Source: a virus
Strand: one strand, 5' to 3'
DNA length: 62,498 nucleotides
Virus record (IMG/VR): IMGVR_UViG_3300036846_000351
Coordinates: 1 to 62,498 of that record
Part shown: positions 1,679 through 57,987 of the stretch, in pieces
Layout: every line of letters starts with the position of its first letter
Position numbering within the stretch: position 1 is the first letter of the stretch
Position numbers and translations under genes: made by a program
The notes under the pieces: generated by a model
Database searches by the model: none
What the model saw: the letters and a program-made list of their open reading frames with translations, nothing else
Told to the model about the DNA's origin: nothing

Positions 1679-1897
1679 CTGATTTGTTTGAGCTTAACGG
1701 TAATGCGCTTGCATCATAATATGAAGTCCATACTTGTCCATGGGAGACCAATACTCCAATAATTTCAATGGTTCATACACCATAATACGGCCATTATATT
1801 TTCACCATTGACCACCACTGTCCACTACGGTACAGTGTACGGGACTACCCACCGAAAAAGTGGGTGTCACATGAATGGTCAATGGAGCTTACCTTCA
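1679..1897 (+). promoter_or_regulatory. Integrase upstream region with two motif 2 sites
   Basis: This AT-rich gap holds two copies of the interrupted dyad: 1716-1736 (ATAATAT, 7-bp centre GAAGTCC, ATACTTG) and 1782-1802 (ATAATAC, centre GGCCATT, ATATTTT). They lie about 160 and 100 bp upstream of the chosen integrase start. A region like this beside the integrase is also the usual place for attP, but no core can be named from the sequence alone. A control role over integration is inferred. Confidence 0.5.
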
Positions 1898-3091
1898 ATG
1901 AAAATCGTGCGTAACCAACTGACGGCGCGTCAGGTCACGACGCTTGCGCCAGGCTTCTACTGCGACGGCGACGGGCTCTACCTGCGCGTCACCCCGACCT
2001 CACGCAACTGGATGTTCCGCTACACCCCGCCAGGCTCGCGCAAGCAGCGCCACATGGGCCTTGGCCCGACGCGGCATGTCACGCTGGCCGAGGCACGCGA
2101 CCGCGTGTACGAGGCGCGCAAGCTGATCCGCGACGGCAAGGACCCGATCGAGGAACGGCGCAAGGCTGGTGAGCAGACCGCTCAAGCAGCGGCGAAGTTC
2201 TCCAAGATACCCACCTTCGCTGAATGCGCGCGGCTGCACCTGCCTGAGCGGCTGAAAGGCCGGACGCTAGGATATCAAAAACAAATGCACCGCTACATCG
2301 AGGCGACGTTCCCGATCCTAGGCGACATGCACGTCGATGCCCCGAGGGCTGATCACATCAAACAGGTCTTAGAGCCCATATGGCTCGCAGAGCCGAGGAA
2401 GGCGCAGCACACGCGAACCGCACTTGGCTGGGTGTTCAACTACGCCAGGGCGTGCAACTACCGCGTCGACAATCCGGCGGATTTAGTAGGGACAATTCTG
2501 CCTCGACAAAACCACCAGCCTCGACACCACGACGCGGTTCACTACGAAGATATCCCCGCGTTCATGGCGAAGCTGCGGACCTATGACGGCATCGAGTACC
2601 GCGCGGTCGAGTTCACGATCCTGACGGCGACGCGTTCCATCGAAAGCCGAGGCGCGCTGTGGGACGAATTCGAGCTGGACCCTAAGCGTCGCGTCTGGAC
2701 GATCCCGGCCAAGCGCATGAAGATGCGCATCGAGCACCACATCCCGCTCAGTCGCCGCGCGCTGACGATCCTCGACGAGCTGAAGGCTATCCGGCAAAGC
2801 GACTACGTTTTTCCGGCGATGATCGCCAAGCACATCCATGAGCACCAGTTGCTCGAAGCGCTGAAAGAAATCGCTGGTGACCGCAGTAAGACAATCCACG
2901 GCACCGCGCGCTCATCGTTTGCCACCTGGGCCGAGGAAGTCACTGACTTCGACGAGCGCATGGTCATGATGGCAACCGCGCACAAGGTCAAAGGCGACAC
3001 TGAGGCAGCCTACGCGCGAGGGACCAAGCTCGAAAAACGTCGCGCGTTGATGGAAGCCTGGGCTGACTACTGCAATGGTGGTCTCCGATGA
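1898..3091 (+). CDS. int: P4-type tyrosine recombinase (integrase)
   Basis: This is the site-specific recombinase that would insert the phage genome into the host chromosome. The N-terminus has a DUF4102-like arm-binding domain (DGDGLYLRVTP followed by a WMFRYTPPGSRKQ stretch). The C-terminal catalytic domain shows ATRSIESRGALWDEF with the first Arg, a conserved KMKMRIEHHIPLS segment, HGTARSSFATW (His-x-x-Arg box) and AHKVKGDTEAAYARG with the catalytic Tyr. It ends with the usual KRRALMEAWADYC tail. The chosen ATG at 1898 gives about 397 residues, near family length; ATG 1871 and a start at 1808 are possible but add residues not typical of the family. P4-type integrases often target tRNA genes, but no tRNA fragment was recognised here. 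Confidence 0.93.
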   Translation: MKIVRNQLTARQVTTLAPGFYCDGDGLYLRVTPTSRNWMFRYTPPGSRKQRHMGLGPTRHVTLAEARDRVYEARKLIRDGKDPIEERRKAGEQTAQAAAKFSKIPTFAECARLHLPERLKGRTLGYQKQMHRYIEATFPILGDMHVDAPRADHIKQVLEPIWLAEPRKAQHTRTALGWVFNYARACNYRVDNPADLVGTILPRQNHQPRHHDAVHYEDIPAFMAKLRTYDGIEYRAVEFTILTATRSIESRGALWDEFELDPKRRVWTIPAKRMKMRIEHHIPLSRRALTILDELKAIRQSDYVFPAMIAKHIHEHQLLEALKEIAGDRSKTIHGTARSSFATWAEEVTDFDERMVMMATAHKVKGDTEAAYARGTKLEKRRALMEAWADYCNGGLR

Positions 3092-6249: not shown

Positions 6250-9200
6250 TTAATTGAACCGGCCCGCCTCCAGTGCGCCCTTGAGGCGGTTCTTCGGCAC
6301 CTGCACACCGTAGGTGCCGGGCACCGCGATCTTGCCCTGCGCCCGCTGCACCGCGCGCTGCAAGTCCTGCACGGTGATCACATAGCCGCCGTTGAGCTGG
6401 CGGTTGGCGTTGTAGGCACGGACCTTTGACATGTCGCGGTTCTGCACAAAGGCGTCCTCGGCCCGCGAGCGGGCGTAGTTAATCTCGTTGTTCCGTTCCT
6501 GAATGGCAGCGCGGCGGTCGTAGATCGTCGCTGTCTCCATCGGGTTAAAGCCCAGCGTGCGCAACACCGGTGTCGATGGCGACAGCCGGTTCGCCGGCAC
6601 GATAACATTGCCCCGCGCGTCAAGCAGCCCTTGGTGCTCCATCTGGTACGACTTGGCGATGTCACCGGCAATGCGCGGCATCAGCCCCAGCACGCCGCGC
6701 TGGAAGTTGCCTGACAGCATGTCGTGGCTCGCCTGGGTCAGTTGCTCCGCCACCTCGCCCGACGCGCCGGTGAGCGCCGTGGCGAACGCCGTCGCCACCC
6801 CCTGCCGGTCAAACGTCTTGATCTCTGGCAGGTCGATCATGTTCGAGATTTTCAAGCTACGGTGCAGGTCGACACCGGCGAGCCCCAGCGCACCCCGCGA
6901 CAGGAAGGTGCTGGCAGTCGGGCCGAGTGCGTCGGTCATCCACCGCCGCAAGTCAGTCTCGTAATTGTGCGGCCCCGGCTCGCCACGCAGCAGGTCCCAC
7001 GCTCCGGTGAGCGCGTTCACCGGCACGCCGAACATGTTGGCGGTGAGCCCGACAAGCAGCGAGTGCGTCGCGACCAGCCCCGCCAGCGCCTTCAACGCCT
7101 CGGCCCGCTCACCCGGTCGGGTCGCCGCCTGCTTCACCAGCGAGCCCATCACCGAATAGAGGTGCATGCCGTAGATTTTGTACTGGAAGGTCGCCGCGAC
7201 CAGCGGGTTGCGCAGCGGGCCGCGCTCGGTCGCGAGGCGCGGCTTGTTCCAGATGTTGTAGTTGGGCATCGCGCGCTGGGCGTAGCGCATCGCGTCCTGA
7301 ATGGCGCCGTCGACATTGCCGCCGTTCTCTCGCATCGCCAGGTCAAACCCAGCCTTGAGGATCGCCACCCGGTTTGTCGCGTCGACCGCATGCTCGGCGC
7401 TGGCGAACAGGTCCATCATGTTGCCGGCCATGTGCCCCAGCCGGGTCGTGGCGTCACCGCCAAAGTTGAAGGCGCCGGGATGCGCCATACGTTGCAGCTC
7501 ACGCGAGCGTGACACGTCGATCATGCCGTACTGGTTGGCGGCGGCGATCAGCGCCTTGGCGTGCGCCGGGTCCATCTTTGCCGCCGAGACCAGCCGCTTC
7601 TCCAGTACATCGGACAGCACCCAGTTCGATTGCTGGAGCTTACCCTGCACCGCCGCGACCATGTTGCGCATGCCGCTGCGCGCGCCCTCGGGCGCAAGCT
7701 GGGTCATCGCCTTCATCAGCGCCCCGCCAGCGCGGCCATGTCCGTAGCGCGCCCCCAGGAACGCCTGGGCGTTGGACATGGCGTCGAGCTGCTGCACCGC
7801 GAGGTGCGCCGGGCGCACGAGGTGCATGACAAAGCTGAGCCCGGTGAAGCGCTTTGCAATCGTTCCAAAGAAGCGCGAGCTGCTGTCGCCGTCGATCGGC
7901 GTCTGCCGCTGGCGCAGCTCGTCGAGCACCTGGCGGGCGCGCTGCACCTGCGAGCTGGTCGGCGGGTTCTTCAACCACTCGTGTTGCTGGCGACTGTCAG
8001 CGATTTCTTCGGCGCTGACCGCCGGGTCCTTGTTGGCAAAGCGCTGTTCGAGGTCCGCCAGCCGCTGCGCCGACGCAGTGATATCCGCCGGTGTCACCTG
8101 CCCGCGCCGCTGGCCCATCTGCTGGAGCCGACGGTCAGCGTCCGCATAGATACGGCGTTCCTCGGCGCCGTTGAGCAGGTAGCCCATGCGCTCGCGGTGC
8201 GCCGCGAAGTCGCGGACAAGGTTCTGCGCCCCCTCGGTCGACGCGCCCTGAATGCCGCGCCGACGCATTGAGTACCGCGCCGCCTGGCTCTGAGTGGCGT
8301 GGGTCAGCATCATACCCGTGAAAGCGTCGAGTGCGTTGTTGGCCGCGTCACCAGTGATCCCGCGCGCCGCGAGCGCGCGTTCCAGCTCGACCGTTGAGGT
8401 TTCTGGCATGAACTCACGGAACCGGCGACCACCACTACCGGTAGTACTCTTTAATTTTACCGGTGACAGATCGACGCCCTGATTGATCGGCTTGCCAGTG
8501 TCGGGATCGGTGTAGAACTGGTCGCGGAACGCCTCGGCCTGGCTGTTGCGGTCGAACATCCGCACGCCATAGCTGTCGGTGCCAGGCTCGCCAAAGCTGA
8601 CGATATAGTCACCGTGGCGTTGCAACGGCGTAAAGTCACCCTCCATCCAGCCGGCGCGTTGCATCTTCGCGATTTCGCGCGCCATGCCGCGTACACCGGG
8701 GTTCCAGCGATCCGCCATCATCGTCGCCAACGGCGAGGCGTCGGGGTTCTTGATGAGCTGGTCGATCGTCGGTTTGCTGCGCGCCTGACGTGCCAGCCAC
8801 GCACGTTCCTCGGGTGTAATGGTATCGCCCAGCCCCAGATCGATCGCGTGCTCAAACGCCGCCTGGCGCTGCGCCCAACCGGTCTCGGTGTGGTAATCGC
8901 GCAGGTCGAGGTAGAGCTTCTGCTGCTCGGGGGTCAACGCGTTAAACTCAGCCTGCAAACCACGCGCGACATCGAGCTGATCAGCATTGAGGTGCGCGTT
9001 GGCTGCCTCGAAATCGGGTCGGCCTAGGCTCGCCTGTGCCAACGAAGCGCGGTTGCGCAAATCCTCGAACTTGTCGCCGGCCTGCGCGAGCTGCTTCGCC
9101 CATGCCTGGACTCGGTTGCCCCACTCCTTCTCGACCTCGGCAGCGGTCGCCGACATCTTCGCCCGCACACCGACGATCTTCTGTGCTTCGGGCAGCACAT

Positions 9201-12200
9201 CCTCGTTGTAATTGGCGATCTCGTTGGTCGTGCTTGCTGGCAGTATCAAGTCGCGCATCGACCGTGAGAGACCGCCGCGCTCGGCCAGGGCACGACGCCA
9301 CAGCGAGGCGCGCACCGGCTTAGTCTCGTCGGGTGTGCCAAATATGCCCTTGTCGCCGATCGCCTGTACTCGGTCGCCAAAGTCTTGCAATCGCTCCGGC
9401 AGGTCACCGGGTGCCGCGTCGGTGATCCGCTCACGCCCACGCGCCGCCGCGCGCAGCTCGGGCGCCCGATAGGTCGCCGGGTCCGGCGTCATCCCCTCGC
9501 GACGGAACCTACCGCCCTGCTCGACCGCCTCTGTCAGTGGACGCATCGCGGCGTCAAGGACGCTGGTGTGCTGCGAGCCTAGCCCGAACACCCGACCAAC
9601 CAAGTCCCTAAAGGTGCTCCACAGGCTACGCCCGCCCTTTGGCGCCAGCCCCAAATAGTGCAAGTCCGCCATCAAATCGTCACTAGCCGCGTGACGTGAC
9701 ATCAAGTCCATCACATGCGGATCAGTCAGTGCCTGCGTCACCAGCTCGGTGAAGTGATCACGCGACAGCGCATAGTCCACGCCAAAAGTTTCTTTGTCGG
9801 TCTGTGCCTTTTCTGTCCCTAGCTCGTCGATCTCACGCGCGACCGACCGCAGCCCCTCGTAAATATTCCGCTCGCGTGTAGTGACCTTCCCACCGTTCTC
9901 GATGCGGTCACCTACATCCTCCAGCCAGCGCACAGTGCCGGCGTGCAGCCCCTCGTGCAGGATCACCCTAACAGGCGGCTCTACTGAACTGGACTTAAGA
10001 GCAATGAAATCACCTTTTGAACTGTAAACACCCGCGAACCTTGCCTCCGTCGGCGCTTTAACAATCGCGACGCCGCGATCGATCGTAGCTTTCAAAGCCT
10101 TCGCCAGCGCGACGAGGTGCGGGGTTGTCGCGCGAGCCGTTGGGTTGTCGATGATATCGTCGAGATAGTCGTGCAGGTCGTGTGCCCTGCCTTCGCGTTC
10201 CCCCGCAGCAAGGCGGTCCCTGAGCGGCTTATTGATCCTCGGGTCCTGCTCAAGCCGCGCGAAGCGCCCGCCGCGCGAGTGTGCGGTTTCGTCCGGCGCG
10301 CCGAACTCGCCCTCACCTAAATCCCGGCGGTTCTGTTCCTCCATCGCTCGGAGCGCGGCGTCGGACTCGGCCTCGCTAACAGCGGGTCGCGCCACAGGTT
10401 TTCTGCGCAACGCGTTTTGCAGCTTGCCGCGCTCCTGAACCATCTGTGGCAGCCGCTCTTGGTCGTCGAATACCCGCTGGTATTCCTTGCCAATGCGATC
10501 GGCCTCGGCCAGGCGCTGCTCGGGGGTGATCGACCGGTTACGATCGTTCGCCGTCGCCGCCTGGGCGAGCTTGCCCAGCGCCTTGGGATCGCCGGCCTGT
10601 TTAATACGATCGTTGAGATAGTCGAGAAACGTCGCGAACTTGCGCGGCCTGCCGCCAGTCTTACTTGGCTCGCCATAAGCGCTGTGCGCCTCGGCGGCAC
10701 TCATCCTGCCTTCCAGCACATCGTGCAGCAGGTCGGCGGCGTGCAGCTCCTTATCGGTCGTTGAGGCGGCGCGCTGCCCCGACTTCAGCTCGCCCGCTTC
10801 CTCGCCCGCCGCCTCGGCGACGGTGGTCACACCCCGCTTAGTCTCGGTCGGCGCCTTCTCAGCTTCCCGCGCCGCAACCTCGCCCACATTCTCCATACCA
10901 CGCGCCGGCGCCCGCGCAGCGGCGGGCGGCTCAGCGGCTGCCTCGAACTCAGCGGCGGCCTCGGCCTTGATCCGCTGCGCCCGCTGCGCGGGCGTTTCAC
11001 GAGGCGCCGTGCTCGCCGTGGGCTCCGCTGGCGCCTCTGTAGGGGCGCGTTTTCTTAAAAGGCTCACGAGCCCCGGCGGCTGGGTAGGCGCCTCAGGCGC
11101 CGCCGCACGCGCCTGCTCGGCCTGTTCGAGCACCTCCCGCGCCGCCGGCTTCATCCGTGCCCGCGCCGCCGCGCGGCGCTGCTGCGCGGGAGACGGTGGT
11201 GTCTCCCCAACAGAGGATACTGTTTCGGGAGACAGCGGTGTCTCCGGCGCAGACGGAGGGGTAGGAGTTGCCTGCGCCGGAGCCCGCTCTCCGGTCGGGG
11301 CGATGGGTTCCACCATCGCTGCCGGTTCGGCTGCGACCGCCTCGACCGGTGCCCTTGCTGCTGCTTCCTGTTGACGCGCCTGCTCGATCTGCGCCGTCGG
11401 CGCGCGGCGTGTCGGCTCGACGGTGGTCGCTGGCACCTGGCTCTGGCTCGGCAGTGTCGCGGGTGATAGTTGCGGTCCTGCCGGCGGCTCTGGTGCCGGC
11501 GGCGCCTCGGGGGCGAGCTGACGCGCCTCGATCCTCGGCGGTGGGAGCTGGGCCTGCGTCGGCTCGACCGTGGTGCGCGGCACCTGGCTTTGATTGGGGA
11601 GCGTCGCGGGTGATAGCGGCGCCGTGCTCGCCGTGGGCTCCGCTGGCGCCGGTGGCGCCTCCGGGGCGAGCTGGCGCGCCGTGATGGATGACGGTAGCGC
11701 CGGCAGCTCGGGCTGCACCATGGCCGCGTTGAGTGCCGCTGCCTCGGCGGGATCGACCCCCCGACTCTGCGGCGGTGCGGGGCCTGGCCGCTCCGTCACA
11801 GGCGCCGGCTCGGGTCCACCCGGCACAGTAAATTCCGCAGGTCCGGCAGCGGCTCCCGGCGGCTGCACCGTTGGCGCCCGGCGCAGCGGGTTGACCGTTG
11901 GCGCGCCCGGCTCGGTAATCGGCGGGACTTGATCGGGCGGCACCGCCTCGCCAGGGCTCGTCGGCGGTCGGAACGGCGCCTGTCGCGACGGTGGCAGCTC
12001 GGTCGGTTCTGCCGCTGGCGGCGGTGTTCCGCGAGTAAAGTCACCGGGACCTGGCGGGTTGACTGCTTGTGTTGTCGCGGCGGCGATATCGGGATCGCCC
12101 GCTGCCGCCGCTGGTCGCTCCGCACGCGCGCCGCCAGCTAGCGCCAACGGCGCCATCAGCGAGCCGACGACACCACCCTGCGCGATCTGACCCATCGACG

Positions 12201-13152
12201 GCGCCTCGAAGGCGCCGCCACGCACCATCTTCTGGACCGGTTCCTCAAAGGTCTGAGCCGCGCCCAGCCCGCCAAAACCTAGCGCACCTGCCGCCAGTTT
12301 GGTCAGCCAGGACTGCCCCTGGACGCCGTGCATCAGCGCGATCGGGGCGCCCATCGAGGCCGCGCCCATGGCACCGCCGGTGAGGATCGAGCCTTGGGTC
12401 GCGTCGGGCTTCTTCGCTTCCTCGTTCATCCCGACCAAAGCGCCGTACACGACCGGTAGTATCGGCGAGAGCCGCGCCATGCCCAGCAGGGCGACACTCG
12501 GCAACACCTGCTCCGATGCCTTGCCGGCGAGCCACGGCATGATGACGCCCTTATCCCAGGCGTCCTTCATCGGCATGGTGCCCAGGCTGTACTTCTCGTC
12601 GGCGGCTTTCTGTGTCTGCTCATCGAAGTTGTCGATCGCGTCGGCGCCCTCTTGCAGCCACTTGGTGTCGGTCCACTGCCCGGTCTTGCGCATCACCGTG
12701 GCGAGCAGCCCACCGCCCTCACCCAGCAAGTGCGCGCCGCTGCGGGCGAGCCCACCGACCAGCTCGGACCCGATGCCCTGCTCGGCCTCGGGCGGCGCCA
12801 TATCCTCGGGAGCGCCAAACGTAAAGGTGTCAGCGCCACCAAACTTGAAACCTTGCTTCCCTTGCGGTGGAGGCGGCGGTGCTGGCGCCGCCGGTGCCGG
12901 TGCCGGTGCCGGTGCCGGCGCTGGTGCCGGTGCCGCTGGAATAATAATCTGATCTTCGCCGCCGGTGGGTTGCGGCGCGCCGATCGCCTGCTGCTGCGGC
13001 TGGTACGCAGCGAGGCGGGCGTCATCCGCCGCGTCCATGTCATCCGGCGCCGGCGCCGGGCGCGGGGTGTAGTCCTCAACGAGAGGCGCTACCGGCGCCG
13101 TCGGCGTCGCGCCAAGGTCCTGATCCTCGTAGAACTGGCGCAGGTCACTCAT
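6250..13152 (-). CDS. Giant ejected virion protein with zinc-peptidase motif (polyvalent protein)
   Basis: At 2300 residues this is the largest gene. Its place at the end of the structural operon after the lysozyme-type proteins, and its size, match the internal proteins that podoviruses eject with their DNA. The N-terminal 130 residues are Pro/Ala-rich, including an AP repeat encoded near 12.89-12.94 kb. A Gly/Ala-rich hydrophobic stretch follows (about 220-330). A long Pro-rich linker then runs to about residue 750. The middle holds HEGLH at residues 1066-1070, an HExxH zinc-peptidase signature. The C-terminal third is helical and resembles large-polyvalent-protein domains (MPNYNIWNKPRL and PLVAATFQYKIYGMH). 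A motif 1 copy (8434-8445) encodes TTGS. A role in DNA delivery and early modification of host proteins is inferred. Confidence 0.8.
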   Translation of the reverse strand: MSDLRQFYEDQDLGATPTAPVAPLVEDYTPRPAPAPDDMDAADDARLAAYQPQQQAIGAPQPTGGEDQIIIPAAPAPAPAPAPAPAPAAPAPPPPPQGKQGFKFGGADTFTFGAPEDMAPPEAEQGIGSELVGGLARSGAHLLGEGGGLLATVMRKTGQWTDTKWLQEGADAIDNFDEQTQKAADEKYSLGTMPMKDAWDKGVIMPWLAGKASEQVLPSVALLGMARLSPILPVVYGALVGMNEEAKKPDATQGSILTGGAMGAASMGAPIALMHGVQGQSWLTKLAAGALGFGGLGAAQTFEEPVQKMVRGGAFEAPSMGQIAQGGVVGSLMAPLALAGGARAERPAAAAGDPDIAAATTQAVNPPGPGDFTRGTPPPAAEPTELPPSRQAPFRPPTSPGEAVPPDQVPPITEPGAPTVNPLRRAPTVQPPGAAAGPAEFTVPGGPEPAPVTERPGPAPPQSRGVDPAEAAALNAAMVQPELPALPSSITARQLAPEAPPAPAEPTASTAPLSPATLPNQSQVPRTTVEPTQAQLPPPRIEARQLAPEAPPAPEPPAGPQLSPATLPSQSQVPATTVEPTRRAPTAQIEQARQQEAAARAPVEAVAAEPAAMVEPIAPTGERAPAQATPTPPSAPETPLSPETVSSVGETPPSPAQQRRAAARARMKPAAREVLEQAEQARAAAPEAPTQPPGLVSLLRKRAPTEAPAEPTASTAPRETPAQRAQRIKAEAAAEFEAAAEPPAAARAPARGMENVGEVAAREAEKAPTETKRGVTTVAEAAGEEAGELKSGQRAASTTDKELHAADLLHDVLEGRMSAAEAHSAYGEPSKTGGRPRKFATFLDYLNDRIKQAGDPKALGKLAQAATANDRNRSITPEQRLAEADRIGKEYQRVFDDQERLPQMVQERGKLQNALRRKPVARPAVSEAESDAALRAMEEQNRRDLGEGEFGAPDETAHSRGGRFARLEQDPRINKPLRDRLAAGEREGRAHDLHDYLDDIIDNPTARATTPHLVALAKALKATIDRGVAIVKAPTEARFAGVYSSKGDFIALKSSSVEPPVRVILHEGLHAGTVRWLEDVGDRIENGGKVTTRERNIYEGLRSVAREIDELGTEKAQTDKETFGVDYALSRDHFTELVTQALTDPHVMDLMSRHAASDDLMADLHYLGLAPKGGRSLWSTFRDLVGRVFGLGSQHTSVLDAAMRPLTEAVEQGGRFRREGMTPDPATYRAPELRAAARGRERITDAAPGDLPERLQDFGDRVQAIGDKGIFGTPDETKPVRASLWRRALAERGGLSRSMRDLILPASTTNEIANYNEDVLPEAQKIVGVRAKMSATAAEVEKEWGNRVQAWAKQLAQAGDKFEDLRNRASLAQASLGRPDFEAANAHLNADQLDVARGLQAEFNALTPEQQKLYLDLRDYHTETGWAQRQAAFEHAIDLGLGDTITPEERAWLARQARSKPTIDQLIKNPDASPLATMMADRWNPGVRGMAREIAKMQRAGWMEGDFTPLQRHGDYIVSFGEPGTDSYGVRMFDRNSQAEAFRDQFYTDPDTGKPINQGVDLSPVKLKSTTGSGGRRFREFMPETSTVELERALAARGITGDAANNALDAFTGMMLTHATQSQAARYSMRRRGIQGASTEGAQNLVRDFAAHRERMGYLLNGAEERRIYADADRRLQQMGQRRGQVTPADITASAQRLADLEQRFANKDPAVSAEEIADSRQQHEWLKNPPTSSQVQRARQVLDELRQRQTPIDGDSSSRFFGTIAKRFTGLSFVMHLVRPAHLAVQQLDAMSNAQAFLGARYGHGRAGGALMKAMTQLAPEGARSGMRNMVAAVQGKLQQSNWVLSDVLEKRLVSAAKMDPAHAKALIAAANQYGMIDVSRSRELQRMAHPGAFNFGGDATTRLGHMAGNMMDLFASAEHAVDATNRVAILKAGFDLAMRENGGNVDGAIQDAMRYAQRAMPNYNIWNKPRLATERGPLRNPLVAATFQYKIYGMHLYSVMGSLVKQAATRPGERAEALKALAGLVATHSLLVGLTANMFGVPVNALTGAWDLLRGEPGPHNYETDLRRWMTDALGPTASTFLSRGALGLAGVDLHRSLKISNMIDLPEIKTFDRQGVATAFATALTGASGEVAEQLTQASHDMLSGNFQRGVLGLMPRIAGDIAKSYQMEHQGLLDARGNVIVPANRLSPSTPVLRTLGFNPMETATIYDRRAAIQERNNEINYARSRAEDAFVQNRDMSKVRAYNANRQLNGGYVITVQDLQRAVQRAQGKIAVPGTYGVQVPKNRLKGALEAGRFN
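12886..12945 (-). repeat. Tandem 6-bp repeat coding for Ala-Pro
   Basis: A GCCGGT-type hexamer is repeated about eight times with minor changes and encodes an alternating Ala-Pro rod near the N-terminus of the giant virion protein. It is prone to slippage, so copy number may vary between isolates. Confidence 0.8.
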
Positions 13153-37893: not shown

Positions 37894-38143
37894 TCTGGAA
37901 GTGGTGAAACTCGATAAGCCAACCACCTCCGACGAGATCATTGCCGGGCTAGAGCGACTGATCGCGCGCCTGCGAGAGGGCGAGTTTGAGACCGTGCTGG
38001 TGTGTGCCTTCACCCCCGGCGGTCAGTGGCTGAGCCAGGAGCTGGGGCGCCACCACAGCCGGCTGGAGATGGTCGGCGTCCTCGAAATTCTCAAGTCGGA
38101 TGTGATCGAGGCCACCTCGACCGGCGAGCGTGCCGGAATTTAA
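37880..38143 (+). CDS. Small hypothetical protein
   Basis: This 87-residue protein from ATG 37880 contains TSDEIIAGLERLIARLREGEFETVLVCAF and a C-terminal helix, an alpha/beta pattern seen in small conserved phage proteins of unknown role. A GTG at 37862 would add 6 residues. A strong AAGGAAGGGGG follows for the next gene. Confidence 0.6.
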   Translation: MTGPNLEVVKLDKPTTSDEIIAGLERLIARLREGEFETVLVCAFTPGGQWLSQELGRHHSRLEMVGVLEILKSDVIEATSTGERAGI

Positions 38144-38160
38144 GGAAGGGGGAACTTACC

Positions 38161-40038
38161 ATGCCTTCACCCAAAGTGATTGCGTCTATTGCTCTTGCTT
38201 TGCTGGTCTCGGTGGGCGCCGATGCCCAAACGCAAACGCACCAACTGCGCGACACCACCGGCAAATGCCTGACCAATAGCCTCGCGCTGCTAACGTGCGA
38301 CGGAAGCCCGACGCAAAGCTGGTCCTATGAGGCGCAGCAGGCAGCCGCGCCGGTCGGTTTGTTCCCCACCGACGCCACGCCGGGGACAGTTGCCGAAAAT
38401 GATCCCCATGCTGTCGTGCTCGGAATGAAGTTTTTGGTGAACGCGGACGGGAAGATCAGCGGGCTGCGGTTCTACAAGAGCGCGCAGAACACCGGCACGC
38501 ATGTCGGCGATCTGTGGGATGCGCAAGGCAAGAACCTCGCCACAGTGACGTTTGCGAACGAGACCGCGAGCGGCTGGCAGAAGGCCGATTTTGCCACGCC
38601 GGTCAACATCACCGCCGGCACGACGTATACCGTCTCCTATCACACGACGACGGGGCATTACGCGGGCGACGAGGGATACTTTAACGCTGCCAAAACCAAT
38701 AACGGCATCACCGCCCCGGCAAACGCCGGGGTGTTTGTCTACGGGGCCAACGCCTACCCCAACGAAACATGGAACCACAGCAATTACTGGGTCGACGTTC
38801 AGTACAACCCTGGGGTATCGGTCCCGATCAACGGCGCGTGCGGCAGCGCCAACGGCGTCCCAGTTTCCAGCGCGCCCAGTCAGAACCTGTGCTCGGCTGG
38901 CACGGCCTCGGCGGTGACGGGGGCGGGACCGTGGAACTGGTCGTGCAATGGCTCGGGCGGCGGGACGAACGCATCGTGCAGCGCGCCAAAGGCAACGATA
39001 CCGCCAAGCCAGAGCACGCTGTTGCTCGGCGTGAATAGTCCATATGACACCAGCATCCAACCCCGCCCGATGTGGGTCGAGGGGCCGGACGGTCAGGGTT
39101 TCCAAGCGTGGACGATCCCCGAGGACTACGCCTACTGGGAAAAGTCGATTGGCTATCCGGCGGGCAGCATCGCCTCCAGCGGGGCCGGGATCGCGATGGA
39201 CCCCGACCCAAGCCGGGGTCCGTGGGACAATTACGAGGGCTCGGCCTGGACGATGGTGCAGTGGATGTACACCCAGGGGAGAGGGGCGGATAAGCTCTGG
39301 CTGAACATCCCGCCGTTCCCGCAGCACCTCGGCATGAAGCTGCCCGAAGTGGCAACCGGAGCCTACGACGAGCATTACCGCAAGGTCGCCGCGCAATTGA
39401 TGGACCACGGCTACGACAAGATTGTCTGGCGACCGATCTGGGAGTTCGAGGGCGGGTGGTACGAGTGGGGCTGGAAAAGCGGTCACCAGAACGGCCCCAC
39501 CTACTGCACCGATTACATCGCCGCGTTCCGGCGGATGGTGCAGGTCATTCGCTCAGTCATGCCGGAAGCCAAGTTTGCCTTTAACGCGGCGGACGGCACG
39601 ATCATGACCCCAAACAACGGCGCGCCCGAAGGATGGCAGGCGTGCTATCCCGGCGACGACGATACGGATTTTGTCGCGATCGACACGTATGATGGGCTGC
39701 GCAGCCGAACCACGCCCGCCGAGACGCGATGGCAGCAAGACCAAGTTCCCGGCATCCGCGACAGTCAGGCGTTGGCGTTGGCGCATCACAAGGGCTGGGC
39801 CGTGCCCGAATGGGCGCAGGGCGACATGGGCGATAACCCGCTCTACGTCAAAAACATGCACGATGCGGCGGTGGCGTTTATGGCGCACGGGTTGCCGGCG
39901 ATGCTCGGCTACTGGAACAGCGGCGATCCGGCGTCCGGTTATGCCGGCTATATGAACACCGACCACAACCCGCAAAGCTGGGCCGAGTTCACAAAGGACT
40001 TTCACGTCCAGAGGAAGGGGCGGATCATCTATCACTGA
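38161..40038 (+). CDS. Secreted DUF4082 / GH26-like glycoside hydrolase
   Basis: The 625-residue protein starts at ATG 38161, giving a clean Sec signal peptide (residues 1-22, ending GADA). Domains in order: DUF4082-like beta sandwich at about 65-215 (VLGMKFLVNADGKISGLRFYKS, YTVSYHTTTGHYAGDEGYF); a small Cys-rich domain at about 218-272 with WNWSCNGSGGG; and a GH26-like catalytic domain at about 280-625. In the last, RPIWEFEGGWYEWG matches the GH26 acid/base region with Glu428, and VPEWAQGD gives Glu550 as likely nucleophile. The usual His before the acid/base Glu is Trp. It would be exported and cut beta-mannan-like or related exopolysaccharide. It may free progeny from capsule or change the lysogen's surface. 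It looks bacterial in origin. Confidence 0.75.
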   Translation: MPSPKVIASIALALLVSVGADAQTQTHQLRDTTGKCLTNSLALLTCDGSPTQSWSYEAQQAAAPVGLFPTDATPGTVAENDPHAVVLGMKFLVNADGKISGLRFYKSAQNTGTHVGDLWDAQGKNLATVTFANETASGWQKADFATPVNITAGTTYTVSYHTTTGHYAGDEGYFNAAKTNNGITAPANAGVFVYGANAYPNETWNHSNYWVDVQYNPGVSVPINGACGSANGVPVSSAPSQNLCSAGTASAVTGAGPWNWSCNGSGGGTNASCSAPKATIPPSQSTLLLGVNSPYDTSIQPRPMWVEGPDGQGFQAWTIPEDYAYWEKSIGYPAGSIASSGAGIAMDPDPSRGPWDNYEGSAWTMVQWMYTQGRGADKLWLNIPPFPQHLGMKLPEVATGAYDEHYRKVAAQLMDHGYDKIVWRPIWEFEGGWYEWGWKSGHQNGPTYCTDYIAAFRRMVQVIRSVMPEAKFAFNAADGTIMTPNNGAPEGWQACYPGDDDTDFVAIDTYDGLRSRTTPAETRWQQDQVPGIRDSQALALAHHKGWAVPEWAQGDMGDNPLYVKNMHDAAVAFMAHGLPAMLGYWNSGDPASGYAGYMNTDHNPQSWAEFTKDFHVQRKGRIIYH

Positions 40039-46309: not shown

Positions 46310-47533
46310 ATGAACCTCGAACAAGCTAAGGATATCCTGTTTCACACCCACATCGCGGCGATCGAGAGCGGTGAGCGGGCACACGGCTATGTTTTGCAGT
46401 CGGGTCCCGGCATCGGCAAGACCGATGGCATCTTTCAACTGGCCGAGCGGCTCGCGCGACACCTCAACGAGCCGGTCGGCGTCGTCGTGACGATGATCGC
46501 CGAGCTAACCGGGCCGGACATGAAGGGCTTTATGCTGCCTGTCCGTGGGGATGCGGGTAGCGTCCCCAAGACGGTATTCACCTGTCCGCCGTGGATGCCA
46601 ACGCACGACAACATCTACGTCGTGCTGCCTGATGGCACCTGGCACGACCCGTCGCTCGACGGTCCCTGGACCGGCGACATCCCCATTACAGGGATCGAGT
46701 TTCTCGACGAGTGGGGCCAGGGTGACGAGGATGTGCGCAAGCCGGGCGCGCCGCTGATCCACCGGGGCTATGTCGGGACTTACTCGCTGCCACCCCTCTG
46801 GAGGGTGGTAGCCGCGCAAAACCGGGTCAGTGACCGGTCGGGTGTGCAGCGCGAGCTGATGCACATCGTCAATCGTCGTTTTCTCTTGGACATCGAGCCC
46901 GACCTAGCAACCTGGCTCAACTGGGCCGACGATCAGCCGGTGCACAAGCGTCCGCACCACCTAACGCGAGCCTTTGCGCGCTCCGAAACCCAAATCGTGT
47001 TTCGGGCAACGCTCCCCGACAGCACCGACCCATACTGCACCCCGCGCTCGCTGTGCATGATGGACCGGGATATTCGGGTTTTACGGAGCGACGAAGATAA
47101 GGAGCACGACAGGCTCCCCATGAGCGATCTCGCTCGCGAGCTGTGCGCGGCGGCGATCGGCAAGGGTGCGGCAGCGCAGTTTTTCACTCATCTGCGCTTT
47201 GCCGATGAGCTGCCCGACCTACAAGACATCATCGACGACCCCACCGGGGCTAAGGTGCCACCGGGCAAGGACGCGCAGATGATCGTCGCCTACATGCTGG
47301 CGGACACGATCGACGAAAACACCGCCAAACCGTGCTTCCGCTACCTCACCCGTCTCGACCGGCGGATGCAGATGCTGGGTGTCGGGACGATCACCGGCAA
47401 GAGCGACGTTGCCATCGCCGACGCGGCGCGCTCGCAATCACAGGTGCGCCGCACCAAGGCGCTGGTGATCCTGCCCGAGTACCAGCGCTGGCTGATGGAG
47501 CACAAGGACCTGTTGTTGGCATCGCAGATGTAG
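46310..47533 (+). CDS. MoxR-like AAA+ ATPase
   Basis: The 407-residue protein starts at ATG 46310. The Walker A box is GPGIGKTD (residues 32-39). IEFLDEWGQG gives Walker B, and VVAAQNRVSDRSG gives sensor 1. The C-terminal half is helical, ending with a QAQ/RRTKALV region. It matches the MoxR-type ATPases that work with a VWA protein. Here the next three genes include DUF3150-like and metallopeptidase/VWA proteins, so the set forms one module. It may remodel a protein or DNA complex. The substrate is unknown. Confidence 0.85.
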   Translation: MNLEQAKDILFHTHIAAIESGERAHGYVLQSGPGIGKTDGIFQLAERLARHLNEPVGVVVTMIAELTGPDMKGFMLPVRGDAGSVPKTVFTCPPWMPTHDNIYVVLPDGTWHDPSLDGPWTGDIPITGIEFLDEWGQGDEDVRKPGAPLIHRGYVGTYSLPPLWRVVAAQNRVSDRSGVQRELMHIVNRRFLLDIEPDLATWLNWADDQPVHKRPHHLTRAFARSETQIVFRATLPDSTDPYCTPRSLCMMDRDIRVLRSDEDKEHDRLPMSDLARELCAAAIGKGAAAQFFTHLRFADELPDLQDIIDDPTGAKVPPGKDAQMIVAYMLADTIDENTAKPCFRYLTRLDRRMQMLGVGTITGKSDVAIADAARSQSQVRRTKALVILPEYQRWLMEHKDLLLASQM

Positions 47534-47542
47534 AGGTGAGCG

Positions 47543-47854
47543 ATGACACCTGCGGAGTTTCTTTTGTGGGAGGCGTGTAATCGGCCCCCCACAACAGCGG
47601 AGTGGCTCACCTGGCTCAGACGGACCAACCAGCCGAAGTGCTTTCTGCGGTACACCAAGCGCGGCTGGGTTCGCCATCGCCGATTGCGGCCCTTTATATG
47701 CCCGATGACGCTCCCGCTCTATCGCGTGACCTGCGGTGGGTACTGGTGGGTGCCTCTCTTGTTGCGCCGCATGGATAAGTCACCGATAGCGACGCCGCAG
47801 CACCGCCGCGCCGCACCGTTGCAACTAACTACCGGTAGTAAAGGAAATGACTGA
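47543..47854 (+). CDS. Hypothetical protein
   Basis: The 103-residue protein is rich in Arg, Trp and Pro (EWLTWLRRTNQPKCFLRY, VRHRRLRPFICPM). It overlaps the next gene by 8 bp and lies within the MoxR module. The last codons carry an exact motif 1 copy (47828-47839, encoding TTGS). Nucleic-acid binding is possible from charge. Confidence 0.55.
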   Translation: MTPAEFLLWEACNRPPTTAEWLTWLRRTNQPKCFLRYTKRGWVRHRRLRPFICPMTLPLYRVTCGGYWWVPLLLRRMDKSPIATPQHRRAAPLQLTTGSKGND

Positions 47855-48791
47855 CATGAACGATATTACACCGATCGGAGTGGTTATCCTTGAGAACTCC
47901 GATATCACTCAGGCCGTGCGTGAGGCCGCGATGCTGGCTTATGTCAGCATCGGCGCGTGGAGCGCGACCGAGAAAGACGACGCGCTGATCGAGGAAGTGA
48001 AGTCGCGCCATGGCGCGACAGGCGAGGTCGGAACCGTGATCAAATATCTGCTCTCAGGAGCAGATAGCAAGCTTAAGGAGGTGCGCGCGGCGTTTCACGC
48101 CGTGCGTAACCACCACTACAAGCTGACGCTGCCATGGGTCAACGACCCGCACGCGCCGACGAACAAGGGGCCGAGGTTACTTCCACATTTAATTTATCCT
48201 CGGTACATGGTGGAGATTTCAGAAAAACGTCGCGCCGCGCTCGCCGCGCTGGAGGAATTTCTGGTGGTCTACCCTGACCTTGTTATCCAGGCTAAGGCCA
48301 ACCTCAGCTCCATGGTCGGGCAAAGCTCGTACCCGACGCCCGAGCAGCTTCGCAAGCTGTTTAGGTTACACGTTGACTTCTCACCCATCCCAGCGGGTCA
48401 GCACTTCACCGGGCTCAACGAGCACATGCGGGAGCGTCTAACCGAGAACCTGCGCAAAAAGCAGGAGCGCCAAATCATGGAGGCATCCTCCATGATGTGG
48501 GCACGGGCGCGCGAGCGTATCGAGCGCCTGGCCGACAGGATGGAGGTCAAAACCGACGAGGATAAGAAGCGGTTTAAAGAGGCGACCATTGAAAATGTCA
48601 GGGACCTCTTAACCTTGCTGCCCGGCTGGAACATCGCCGGCAACCCGATGGTTGACGAGATCACCCAGGACATCGAGCAGATGTTGCACGGGCTCGACGC
48701 GGGTCAGCTCCGGCGCGACGACGAGTTGCGCAAGGAGGTCGGCGACGAGGCGAAGAAAATCGTCGACAAGATGGCGCGCTGGGGCCTGTGA
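47847..48791 (+). CDS. DUF3150-like protein of the MoxR module
   Basis: This 314-residue protein begins MTDMNDITPIGVVILEN, and ATG 47856 has the better spaced AAGGA. It is mostly helical with EVRAAFHAVRNHHYKLTLPWVN and a central SSYPTPEQLRKLFRLHVDFSPIP, the pattern of DUF3150 proteins that phages and plasmids encode beside MoxR ATPases. The second half is a long coiled coil (EASSMMWARARERIERLADRM). It probably bridges ATPase and VWA protein. Function inferred from context. Confidence 0.75.
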   Translation: MTDMNDITPIGVVILENSDITQAVREAAMLAYVSIGAWSATEKDDALIEEVKSRHGATGEVGTVIKYLLSGADSKLKEVRAAFHAVRNHHYKLTLPWVNDPHAPTNKGPRLLPHLIYPRYMVEISEKRRAALAALEEFLVVYPDLVIQAKANLSSMVGQSSYPTPEQLRKLFRLHVDFSPIPAGQHFTGLNEHMRERLTENLRKKQERQIMEASSMMWARARERIERLADRMEVKTDEDKKRFKEATIENVRDLLTLLPGWNIAGNPMVDEITQDIEQMLHGLDAGQLRRDDELRKEVGDEAKKIVDKMARWGL

Positions 48792-48800
48792 GAGGCTGGC

Positions 48801-49223
48801 ATGGGATACAACTCCATGCCGGCGCCTCCGCCGCAGCTGCCAGGCCGCGCCGAGCATGTCAGCCGCTTTGAGGTGCTGAGCGAGCTGGAGGACGTGTGGA
48901 ACGACAGCCAGCTTCGCACGGCGATCCTGCATGTGACCGGCGGGCACATCAATATGCGCACCGTCGTCGTCGAGACCAAGGTGGACGCCCAGCGTCTGCC
49001 CGTGGTTTGGAGCGATGCTCAGTCGGTCGGGCGGGTGCTCTACATGAGTCCCTGGCTGCCCCACAAGAACGAGCTGGCGATCGAGGTTTACGCCGCTTGT
49101 GAGCGCGTGGTCACCGCGATGAACCGCATGAACCTCGCGCTACAAGCCAACGACGCCCAGGACGTTTTCAACCACCTTTGGAGTATGGAGCAAATCGATG
49201 TTACCGACACGAGCAAAACTTGA
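48801..49223 (+). CDS. Hypothetical protein of the MoxR module
   Basis: The 140-residue protein lies between the DUF3150-like gene and the metallopeptidase/VWA gene and overlaps the latter by 26 bp, so expression is tightly coupled. It has an alpha/beta pattern (LHVTGGHINMRTVVVETKVD) and a C-terminal helix rich in Met, Asn and Ala. No family is recognised. It may be an adaptor of the module. Confidence 0.65.
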   Translation: MGYNSMPAPPPQLPGRAEHVSRFEVLSELEDVWNDSQLRTAILHVTGGHINMRTVVVETKVDAQRLPVVWSDAQSVGRVLYMSPWLPHKNELAIEVYAACERVVTAMNRMNLALQANDAQDVFNHLWSMEQIDVTDTSKT

Positions 49224-50538
49224 CTATCAACAGCGCAAAGCCATGGACGAAGGCATGGTTGCCTTTATGAATTTCTGTCCGTTCTTTGCCTATTTCTTCA
49301 ACGACCAGATGGAGGAATACCCGACGCTGGAAGTGGAGACGGCGGCGACCGATGGCCGGCGGCTGTTCTACAATCCGTCCTACATGATGACGCTCAAACC
49401 CATGGAGCGCTGTTTCGCCTTCGCCCACGAGACCTATCACGTCATCTACAAGGACCCGATCAAAATGGCGTATTACATGGCGCAAGGTACGGTGAAGGGG
49501 CTGCCCTTTATCCGCGACCTGATGAACTGCGCGATGGATTACGTCATCAACGCGGACCTTGTGGACAGCGCGATCGGCACCTGCAACCCGGCCTGGCTCT
49601 ACGACGCCGCCATCAAGGCTAGCGAGATGGCCGAGGATGTCTACGTCAAGCTCTACAAAAAGCTCCCCCCGCCCCCGCCGCAACGACCCCAACAAGGCCA
49701 GGGCCAAGGCGGTGGCAGCGACGGTCAACAACAGCCGGGGCCAACTACCGGTAGTGGGCAGCAACAAATGCCACCACCTAAAACGCGTGGGCAGACAACC
49801 GGGCAAAAGGCTGGTCACGACCAGACGGCGCAAGCCGCCGGTGGGCGCTTTGACGAGGTGCTCGAACCCCACCGCGACGCAGCGTCGGGCAAGGAGGATT
49901 TGCCCAGCGAGATGGAGTTCCGCGAAGCGGTTTCGCGCAGCGAAGCCGCTGCGAAGCGGGTGGGTAAGATGCCCGGCAACTTACAGAGGATAGTAAGAGA
50001 AATTATCGAACCTCAGATTTATTGGAAGGATGAATTACGCCTCAGGATTACAGGGAAAATCGGCGCGCGGCGCGAGAATTGGGATCGTCCCAACCGTCGG
50101 CGCCTGGTGCTCAACCCGATGGTCTACATGCCCAGCCGCCAGGGGCATGGCGCGGAGCTGATCACCGTCGTCATCGATAACTCTGGCAGTATTGGAGATG
50201 ATGAATTAACCGTGTTCTTCTCCGAGGCCGCGTCGATCCTGGCCGATTGTAGACCTAAGAAGGTCCAAATCATCTGGTGCGACGAGCAGATCAAGCGCGT
50301 CGAGGAAGCGCGCTCGCTAGATGAACTCCTTCATCTACGCGAAGCTCCTGGTGGCGGCGGAACAAGTTTTATACCACCCTTTGCTTACCTTGAGCGCGAG
50401 CGCATCCAGCCAGATACACTCGTGTATCTGACTGACATGATGGGGCCTTTTCCTAAGGAACCAAATTATCCCGTAATTTGGTGCGCCACCACCGACATCA
50501 AGGGGCCGTTCGGCGAAACGGTGAGAGTGAAGGTATAA
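49198..50538 (+). CDS. Metallopeptidase-like / VWA protein (DUF2201-type)
   Basis: The 446-residue protein has two domains. Residues 1-150 form a zinc metallopeptidase-like domain with HETYH at 77-81 (HExxH). A Pro/Gln/Gly-rich linker follows (155-215), which carries an exact motif 1 copy (49744-49755, encoding TTGS). Residues about 240-446 form a VWA domain with the MIDAS motif DNSGS at 327-331, plus IIWCD and YLTDMMG. This is the DUF2201 arrangement found with MoxR ATPases. It could act as a metal-dependent peptidase or binding partner controlled by the AAA+ ATPase. Activity is not shown. Confidence 0.82.
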   Translation: MLPTRAKLDYQQRKAMDEGMVAFMNFCPFFAYFFNDQMEEYPTLEVETAATDGRRLFYNPSYMMTLKPMERCFAFAHETYHVIYKDPIKMAYYMAQGTVKGLPFIRDLMNCAMDYVINADLVDSAIGTCNPAWLYDAAIKASEMAEDVYVKLYKKLPPPPPQRPQQGQGQGGGSDGQQQPGPTTGSGQQQMPPPKTRGQTTGQKAGHDQTAQAAGGRFDEVLEPHRDAASGKEDLPSEMEFREAVSRSEAAAKRVGKMPGNLQRIVREIIEPQIYWKDELRLRITGKIGARRENWDRPNRRRLVLNPMVYMPSRQGHGAELITVVIDNSGSIGDDELTVFFSEAASILADCRPKKVQIIWCDEQIKRVEEARSLDELLHLREAPGGGGTSFIPPFAYLERERIQPDTLVYLTDMMGPFPKEPNYPVIWCATTDIKGPFGETVRVKV

Positions 50539-56316: not shown

Positions 56317-56447
56317 GGAGTGGTGAACTACAGCTTTCGTTCAGTGGTGAAGTTATTGAAATCATCGAGCCGCGTGTTGTGTGGCCGATGCGGAGGTTAC
56401 CTATGTCGAGAGAGGATTTGAAGAAACTCTATGTATGTGACTGCTGA
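56262..56447 (+). CDS. Small hypothetical protein
   Basis: The 61-residue protein overlaps the VRR-NUC gene by 55 bp and the helicase gene by 17 bp. It is beta-rich and acidic at the N-terminus (YVIELGSGELQLSFSGEVIEI). No family is recognised. Confidence 0.5.
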   Translation: MAHYSSDSEGEPFYVIELGSGELQLSFSGEVIEIIEPRVVWPMRRLPMSREDLKKLYVCDC

Positions 56448-57987
56448 CACCAACCACATCGTCGTGCCGTGGCGGGCCGACCTTGCCAACATCATGCCGC
56501 AAGCACGTTCGATCGACTACCAGGGGCAGAAGATGCTGCTGGTGCCCAACGGGCACGCCGAAGCCAAGGTTGCGCGGAACCTGGGTGTGCCGGTCCCGGC
56601 GCCGATCTTTACGCGCTATCGCTGGGCCGGCGGGCAGAAGCCGTGGGAGACGCAAAAGGTCACGTCGGCGTTGCTGACGGAGAGCCCTAGAGCGTATGTC
56701 TTAAATGAGTTTGGAACGGGGAAAACTAGATCGGTCATATGGGCGGCGGACTACCTGCGCCAAGCGGCCAAAGTTGGCCGCGTATTAATCACCGCACCTT
56801 TGTCGACGCTTACCCCCGTTTGGGAAGCTGAACTCTTTAGGCTCTTGCCATTAGCCAGAGTTCAGGTGCTGTACGGCGACAAGCGCCAGCGTCTTGAGCG
56901 TTTAGCAAAAGACGCCGATTACTACATCGTCAATCACCATGGGCTGTCGTTGCTGCGCGACGCACTGATTAAGCGCGGGTTTGATATCTTCGTCATCGAC
57001 GAGCTGGCGATCTTTCGTAATAAATCAACCGACCTGTGGAAGGCAGCCAACGCGATCATCCGCACCAGTGCGGGTATGCAGTATGTGTGGGGCCTGACCG
57101 GCTCGCCGACGCCCAAGGCGGCGACCGACGCCTGGGCGCAGACCATGCTGCTGACGCCCGACCGCACGACCGTCTCGCTGACCCGCTTCAAAGACATGAC
57201 GATGCGGCAGATCACTGGGTTCAAATGGGTTAACCGGCCCCAGGCCCAGGAGATTGTGCAGGAGACCATGCAGCCGAGCGTGCGCTTCGCGCTCTCGGAT
57301 GTGACGGAACTCCCTGCAACCTCGTACCAAACCTATCGGATCGAGTTAGAGGCGCCGACGCGCGCCGCCTACAAGATGCTGTTCGACAAGATGGCGGTGA
57401 TCACCAAGAACGGCGAGAGCGTGACCGCCGTCAATGAGGGAGTGCTGCAATCTAAACTTTTACAGGTCTCCCTCGGCTACATCTATACCGACAAGCGCGG
57501 CACCGTCGCCCTGCCCAACGCCAATCGCTTGGAGCAGCTCCGTGAGCTGGTCGAGCAGACCAGCCGCAAGGTCATCGTCTTTGTGCCCTTTCTGCACGCG
57601 CTCGAAGGCGTCGCTGCCTTTCTGCAAAAGCATACGTCGATCGCGGTTGTGCATGGACAAACTCCGATCGGCGCTCGCAACAAAATCTTTCGCTCATTCC
57701 AAGAAGAATATAAGCCTCATACTATTGTCGCCCATCCCGCTTGTATGTCGCACGGGCTGACGCTGACCGCCGCCAACATGATTGTTTGGTTCGGGCCAGT
57801 AAATAATTACGAAACATACGAGCAGGCCAATGCGAGAATTATCAGACCAGGGCAAACATCAAAAACAATAGTTGCCCATTTAGTGGGCTCTCCGGTCGAG
57901 CGTCTGGCTTACAAGAGACTACAAGAACGTGGTACATTCCAGGGGATGCTCCTGGAATTGTTTCGCCAACAGGAGCTGGAGTTCTGA
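56431..57987 (+). CDS. SNF2-type DEAD-like helicase
   Basis: This 518-residue protein has the two RecA-like folds of SF2 helicases: FGTGKTR as motif I (Gly95-Thr99), APLSTLTPVW as Ia, VIDELA as motif II (Asp190-Glu191), LTGSPTP as III, and QANARIIRPGQTSKTIVAHLV as VI. The RPGQ ending is typical of SNF2/phage helicases. It probably unwinds or remodels DNA in replication or recombination near the two nucleases. Confidence 0.9.
   Translation: MYVTADTNHIVVPWRADLANIMPQARSIDYQGQKMLLVPNGHAEAKVARNLGVPVPAPIFTRYRWAGGQKPWETQKVTSALLTESPRAYVLNEFGTGKTRSVIWAADYLRQAAKVGRVLITAPLSTLTPVWEAELFRLLPLARVQVLYGDKRQRLERLAKDADYYIVNHHGLSLLRDALIKRGFDIFVIDELAIFRNKSTDLWKAANAIIRTSAGMQYVWGLTGSPTPKAATDAWAQTMLLTPDRTTVSLTRFKDMTMRQITGFKWVNRPQAQEIVQETMQPSVRFALSDVTELPATSYQTYRIELEAPTRAAYKMLFDKMAVITKNGESVTAVNEGVLQSKLLQVSLGYIYTDKRGTVALPNANRLEQLRELVEQTSRKVIVFVPFLHALEGVAAFLQKHTSIAVVHGQTPIGARNKIFRSFQEEYKPHTIVAHPACMSHGLTLTAANMIVWFGPVNNYETYEQANARIIRPGQTSKTIVAHLVGSPVERLAYKRLQERGTFQGMLLELFRQQELEF

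Follow-up and report, generated by a model that had tools for sequence, protein, structure and literature searches.

The window analysed here is a whole virus record of 62,498 bases from IMG/VR (IMGVR_UViG_3300036846_000351), with tailed-phage genes for a portal/adaptor, a major head protein, a terminase and an integrase. Because it carries the integrase (1808-3091, + strand), the phage is probably temperate. At 46310-50538 lies a module of five ORFs on the + strand, whose reading frames, start/stop overlaps and order are as the initial annotation described them. Three of the five are conserved genes, coding for an AAA+ ATPase, a DUF3150-like helical protein and a DUF2201 protein with a zincin-like and a VWA domain. 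As that annotation had also stated, the module stands at the head of the replication genes, directly 5' of polA (51615), an exonuclease (54803), a nuclease (55936) and an SNF2-type helicase (56431), and it lies on the strand opposite to most structural genes of the window. The helicase (56431-57987, + strand) is similar to the helicase parts of the ZorD/DpdE defence proteins. A DNA-level search of the module against phages returned no match, and a promoter scan around it gave about chance level. Elsewhere in the window, a 2300-aa protein with the polyvalent-protein domain LPD39 (6250-13152, - strand) has as its neighbour a 914-aa protein that contains a transglycosylase SLT domain; both are likely ejected internal proteins. 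The ORFs at 60978-61610 and 98-1678 (+ strand) match different parts of the primase-like PHROG_25314, a gene that could be interrupted or could continue past the ends of the record, and a 678-aa protein at 38002-40038 (+ strand) combines DUF4082 with a glycosyl hydrolase 26-like stretch and has no PHROG match.

The first gene of the module (46310-47533, ATG at 46310) encodes a 407-aa ATPase of the MoxR/midasin class that matches PHROG_1297 (E=2e-45). Its set of AAA+ catalytic motifs is complete, with Walker A GPGIGKT (residues 32-38, 46403-46423), Walker B FLDE (residues 131-134, 46700-46711), sensor-1 N171, arginine finger R189 and sensor-2 R246. Across ten diverse phage homologues the key residues are invariant, including G34, G36 and K37 of Walker A and E134 of Walker B, while D133 is nearly so. 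Against solved proteins the ATPase profile matched midasin at 2.7e-33 and NorQ at 2e-7; Clp proteins scored about as NorQ did, on short matches. Judged by its sequence, the ATPase belongs to the MoxR/midasin clade and has its catalytic motifs intact. Together with the intact MIDAS described below, these results agree with the original assignment of the module to the MoxR-VWA class.

The last gene (49198-50538) encodes a 446-aa protein with an N-terminal zincin-like and a C-terminal VWA domain. It matches PHROG_1314 and, above the curated cut-offs, both Pfam DUF2201_N (PF13203, E=2e-31, 110 bits) and DUF2201 (PF09967, E=4e-23, 82 bits). The HExxH motif reads HETYH (residues 77-81, 49426-49440), and D114 and N118 in the motif AxDxxIN (49537-49551) are the likely third metal ligand and its partner residue, invariant together with HExxH in phages. 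In the VWA domain the MIDAS motif DxSGS (residues 327-331, D327-x-S329-x-S331; 50176-50190) is completed by T389 (50362-50364) and D413 (50434-50436), and phage homologues retain the five residues of this site. The claim that an HExxH domain is joined to a MIDAS-bearing VWA domain is therefore upheld by the Pfam domains and the conserved residues. The structural model (pLDDT 79.5) contains the VWA fold, with NorD among the fold matches, and a Pfam scan found no CobT domain in the protein. Searching IMG/VR with the VWA protein alone returned no match, and a ten-sequence alignment was too diverged to yield usable patterns. Matches of the VWA profile to pentatricopeptide proteins covered only 20 residues and were dismissed. 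The label of PHROG_1314 is 'HNH endonuclease', and this name or 'homing endonuclease' stands on DUF2201 zincin-VWA proteins in many phage records. We consider the label false; a possible source is contamination from homing genes, G7C gp24.1 being an example.

The two active sites of the VWA protein have had different histories. A complete MIDAS is present in all 86 VWA proteins compared (T389 being serine in two), whereas the zinc site H77-E78-H81-D114-N118 is intact in 78. The eight altered sites all belong to bacterial or plasmid-type copies; every phage copy long enough for scoring retains HExxH with D114 and N118. In the plasmid-type copies with LKQQx and RIAQH all five zinc-site positions have changed together, which supports the placing of D114 and N118 within the zinc site, and the ATHDH, QLHDN and mild HDHDN variants retain D114. 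D114 is thus probably the third zinc ligand. HExxH and D114 likely make up a zincin signature; peptidase activity is putative. On the tree the eight altered sites fall in about five places, several with intact sister rows; this number of lineages was not taken from the automatic tree count, which ignores ungrouped rows.

Between the two outer genes lies a 314-aa helical protein (47847-48791), the candidate third partner. It has no Pfam match, the PF11348 (DUF3150) model staying below its curated cut-off; its best relative reached 22.1 bits against a cut-off of 24.9, and a direct PF11348 search of the phages that bear its relatives (hereafter H3) found no match. When profiles were compared by hhalign, the alignment between the 314-aa family and genuine PF11348 proteins spanned 247 columns (prob 96.1, E=3.6e-9). 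The AF2 model of the protein (pLDDT 85.3, pTM 0.78) matches a phage protein named DUF3150 (E=1e-13, TM 0.76/0.81), and the PDB fold search with it gave no match (best E=0.98). From the profile comparison and the predicted fold the protein is related to DUF3150, distantly, and the label DUF3150-like holds in that sense. The middle gene of SCTP-2 was also considered as a DUF3150 relative and rejected, as it is not similar.

The two remaining ORFs of the module fare less well. The small basic protein of the initial annotation exists as a 103-aa ORF (47543-47854), but it is a doubtful gene, with a score per codon of -0.05 compared with 0.23-0.35 in its neighbours. The supposed adaptor, a 140-aa protein (48801-49223), has normal coding statistics and appears lineage-specific. 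No relatives were found for either, even in the phage contig L017, the nearest relative (helical protein 59% identical), in which about 20 bases separate the helical and VWA genes. Neither ORF is therefore part of the conserved set, and of the four or five coupled genes originally proposed, it is the ATPase, helical and VWA genes that keep together across phages and plasmids, even where their order changes.

Among phage records 261 match the ATPase and 329 the VWA protein, and PHROG_1297 and PHROG_1314 link these outer genes of the module to gp24 and gp25 of phage N4. In most phage records examined the two genes are adjacent or a few genes apart, with a homing-type insertion in G7C. H3 accompanies them in two gene orders: ATPase-H3-VWA in the window, L003, L017 and L018 (L019 ends before any VWA gene), and H3-ATPase-VWA in L016, L025 and L026/27. 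L016 and L025-27 were located via their ATPase and VWA genes. The co-occurrence that the initial annotation had proposed to look for in other phages was found for the ATPase-helical-VWA set; the IMG/VR scans were pattern-based and will have missed diverged members. The module also lies beside replication genes in Rhizobium phage RHph_TM3_14A. In L003, Planktothrix phage Pag-Yong1, a gene annotated as the anti-CRISPR AcrVA2 (9692-10732) stands two genes 3' of the VWA gene; here we have the annotation only. The helical protein was not found in whole genomes of N4-like and other phages, which shows that it is not needed everywhere. In seven phage contigs of the window's own VWA clade a conserved gene of about 72 aa (MRTYTIELRVDFED...) lies between the ATPase and VWA genes, 5' of the latter (L002 11369-11590; L013 3987-4202; L014 5752-5964; L021 7624-7863; L022 7353-7586; L023; L024). 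The family also occurs at L020, with a weak match at L015; the members scanned have no PHROG match, and whole-record searches found no H3 in those of the contigs that were tested. On sequence grounds the third partner appears to have been exchanged, the small gene replacing the helical protein in one phage clade. The 140-aa protein was rejected as a relative, since the profile of the small family has no match in the window's six frames.

The ATPase/VWA pair itself is already known from N4 and from jumbo phages, and the statement that its role in phages is not known was right even so. The core set of N4-like phages has only 14 genes, among them gp24 and gp25, which are middle genes and are listed without a function (PMC4193335). 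The main text of a CRISPRi-ART paper holds no fitness data on them. Iyer et al. 2021 (PMC7824862) described a MoxR-vWA pair with a fused metallopeptidase in jumbo phages and proposed it as a virion-assembly chaperone. What is new is, in our reading of the sequences, the helical protein as a constant third partner of ATPase and VWA protein, in bacterial loci as well as in diverged phages, where the genes come in two orders. Also new are the contrast between a constant MIDAS and a zinc site altered in several lineages, and the small gene that stands in for the helical protein in one phage clade.

The same trio also occurs outside phages. Plasmid searches returned 44 records. When 84,980 species genomes were scanned with the plasmid version of the helical protein alone, 62 loci came up, nearly all in Burkholderiales, and 58 of these have the three genes adjacent. 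Three of the others (L046, L093 and L095) have lost one trio gene to a contig end, and L094 is degenerate, with a 75-residue fragment, no VWA gene and no masked bases. PRTRC_ThiF scores above its cut-off in 44 of 49 trio-bearing genomes and lies 5.9-14.5 kb 5' of the trio on the same strand in 32 genomes, the shared contig being deduced from matching position and strand. The location of the trio on Burkholderiaceae plasmids, as a rule at a distance of 6-15 kb from PRTRC genes, has not been described before. This linkage counts as few independent events, because it comes largely from one plasmid lineage. A device particular to phages, as first suggested, does not fit this distribution. Genuine DUF3150 genes, for which the literature searched contains no mention, have a similar setting. 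In each of the five PF11348 loci from a search of 274 genomes, a neighbouring protein carries HExxH and MIDAS and matches VWA and CobT-type models, and a CobS-like AAA+ ATPase is nearby in four; the trio recurs here with DUF3150 genes and CobS/CobT-like partners, also a new observation. Because the CobT-type and DUF2201-type partners barely align (hhalign prob 26, VWA part only), the helical family appears to be paired with two different types of zincin-VWA protein.

We propose, with a probability of about one half, that the trio is a three-part ATP-driven remodelling machine whose target is shared by phages and plasmids and which works during replication or establishment, not in virion assembly. 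If it operates as NorQ/NorD and midasin do, the ATPase would form a hexameric ring, on which the VWA protein would dock and with its MIDAS grip an acidic residue of the substrate. ATP-driven movement of the ring might then twist or pull the VWA protein, and the substrate would change conformation or be extracted from a complex. The DUF3150-like protein could be the adaptor or scaffold coupling ring, VWA protein and substrate, and the zincin domain an accessory that holds or clips the substrate. Targets could be the element's own replication or maintenance assemblies, or a host protein limiting them. In NorQD, a finger of the VWA protein enters the ring pore, the linker twists, and MIDAS or linker contacts the client (PMC13036017); we transfer this mechanism as a possible model, not as a claim of membership. 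The sequences show the gene content, the intact motifs, the constancy of the trio and its occurrence on plasmids, and a MIDAS that persists where zinc sites are lost; physical complex, adaptor role, timing and target are what we infer. Action in replication or establishment is favoured by the replication neighbourhood of the module and by the middle expression in N4, although a position beside replication genes need not imply action on replication, and the function of the trio may differ between phages and plasmids. More tentatively, and at somewhat worse than even odds, DUF3150 proteins could be the third subunit that defines a remodelling machine of mobile elements. On two or more occasions they would have joined a different zincin-VWA protein (CobT and DUF2201 types), and the machine would serve one shared replication or establishment step in phages and plasmids, for which the MIDAS grip would be essential and the peptidase dispensable.

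A chaperone for virion assembly or maturation that proteolytically processes structural proteins, as Iyer et al. suggested for jumbo phages, has a precedent in Acidianus two-tailed virus (PMC7824862) and would account for the zinc site being kept in most members. In roseophages, moreover, the pair adjoins a second structural module (PMC4193335). Still, plasmids with a homologous trio make no virions, so the role that phages and plasmids share cannot lie in virion assembly, and the middle timing of gp24 and gp25 points the same way. The virion-protein table of RPP1/RLP1 contains no homologue of either in the part covered (PMC4193335), and the window module is placed with replication genes, away from the strand of most structural genes. 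We therefore regard this explanation as unlikely.

Alternatively, the module might provide a protease for host takeover or anti-defence, directed at a host protein to cleave or inactivate it, as the initial annotation supposed. Host defences are met by phages and plasmids alike, the module precedes the replication genes, and the zinc site is preserved in all scorable phage copies. Against this, about five plasmid-type lineages have altered that site and kept the MIDAS, which speaks against a strict need for proteolysis, on plasmids at any rate. The PADLOC models gave no match to the module proteins, nor was any other defence link found, and a pair that belongs to the core genes of N4-like phages from many hosts (PMC4193335) is unlike typical anti-defence genes. 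The idea is thus unsupported, and we give it rather longer odds than the assembly chaperone. Insertion of a metal or cofactor, with a chelatase- or NorQD-like machine supplying a metallocofactor to an enzyme, seems very improbable. It is suggested by the CobS/CobT-like neighbours of genuine DUF3150 and by NorQ/NorD as structural relatives, but the window VWA protein is without a CobT domain, no CobN domain was found in the largest window protein, the one with LPD39 (part of the window ORFs having been scanned), and the partners are mobile-element genes with no client enzyme nearby.

The presence of the trio on plasmids weakens the existing virion-assembly proposal and opens up another genetic system, and copies that lack the zinc site in nature predict which of the active sites is the important one. 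The trio also gives a genomic context to DUF3150 and reveals a widespread false 'HNH endonuclease' label. Among known systems, NorQ/NorD, RavA/ViaA and midasin combine a MoxR-clade AAA+ protein with a VWA cochaperone, as the window does, although their known clients are absent from it; to our knowledge, none has a DUF3150 partner or a fused HExxH domain. N4 gp24/gp25 and their Schitoviridae homologues (PHROG_1297 and PHROG_1314) share gene order, catalytic residues and MIDAS residues with the window, but at about 25% identity and with no DUF3150-like gene, and the window phage belongs to another, integrase-bearing lineage. The jumbo-phage pair has the window's domain architecture and, in the part of PMC7824862 covered, was described as a pair, with neither a third partner nor plasmids considered. 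DUF3150 (PF11348) operons have the same three-part layout as the window and related helical proteins, with a VWA partner of the CobT type (PF06213/CobT_C) that carries HExxH...EDxRxE, unlike the DUF2201 protein of the window.
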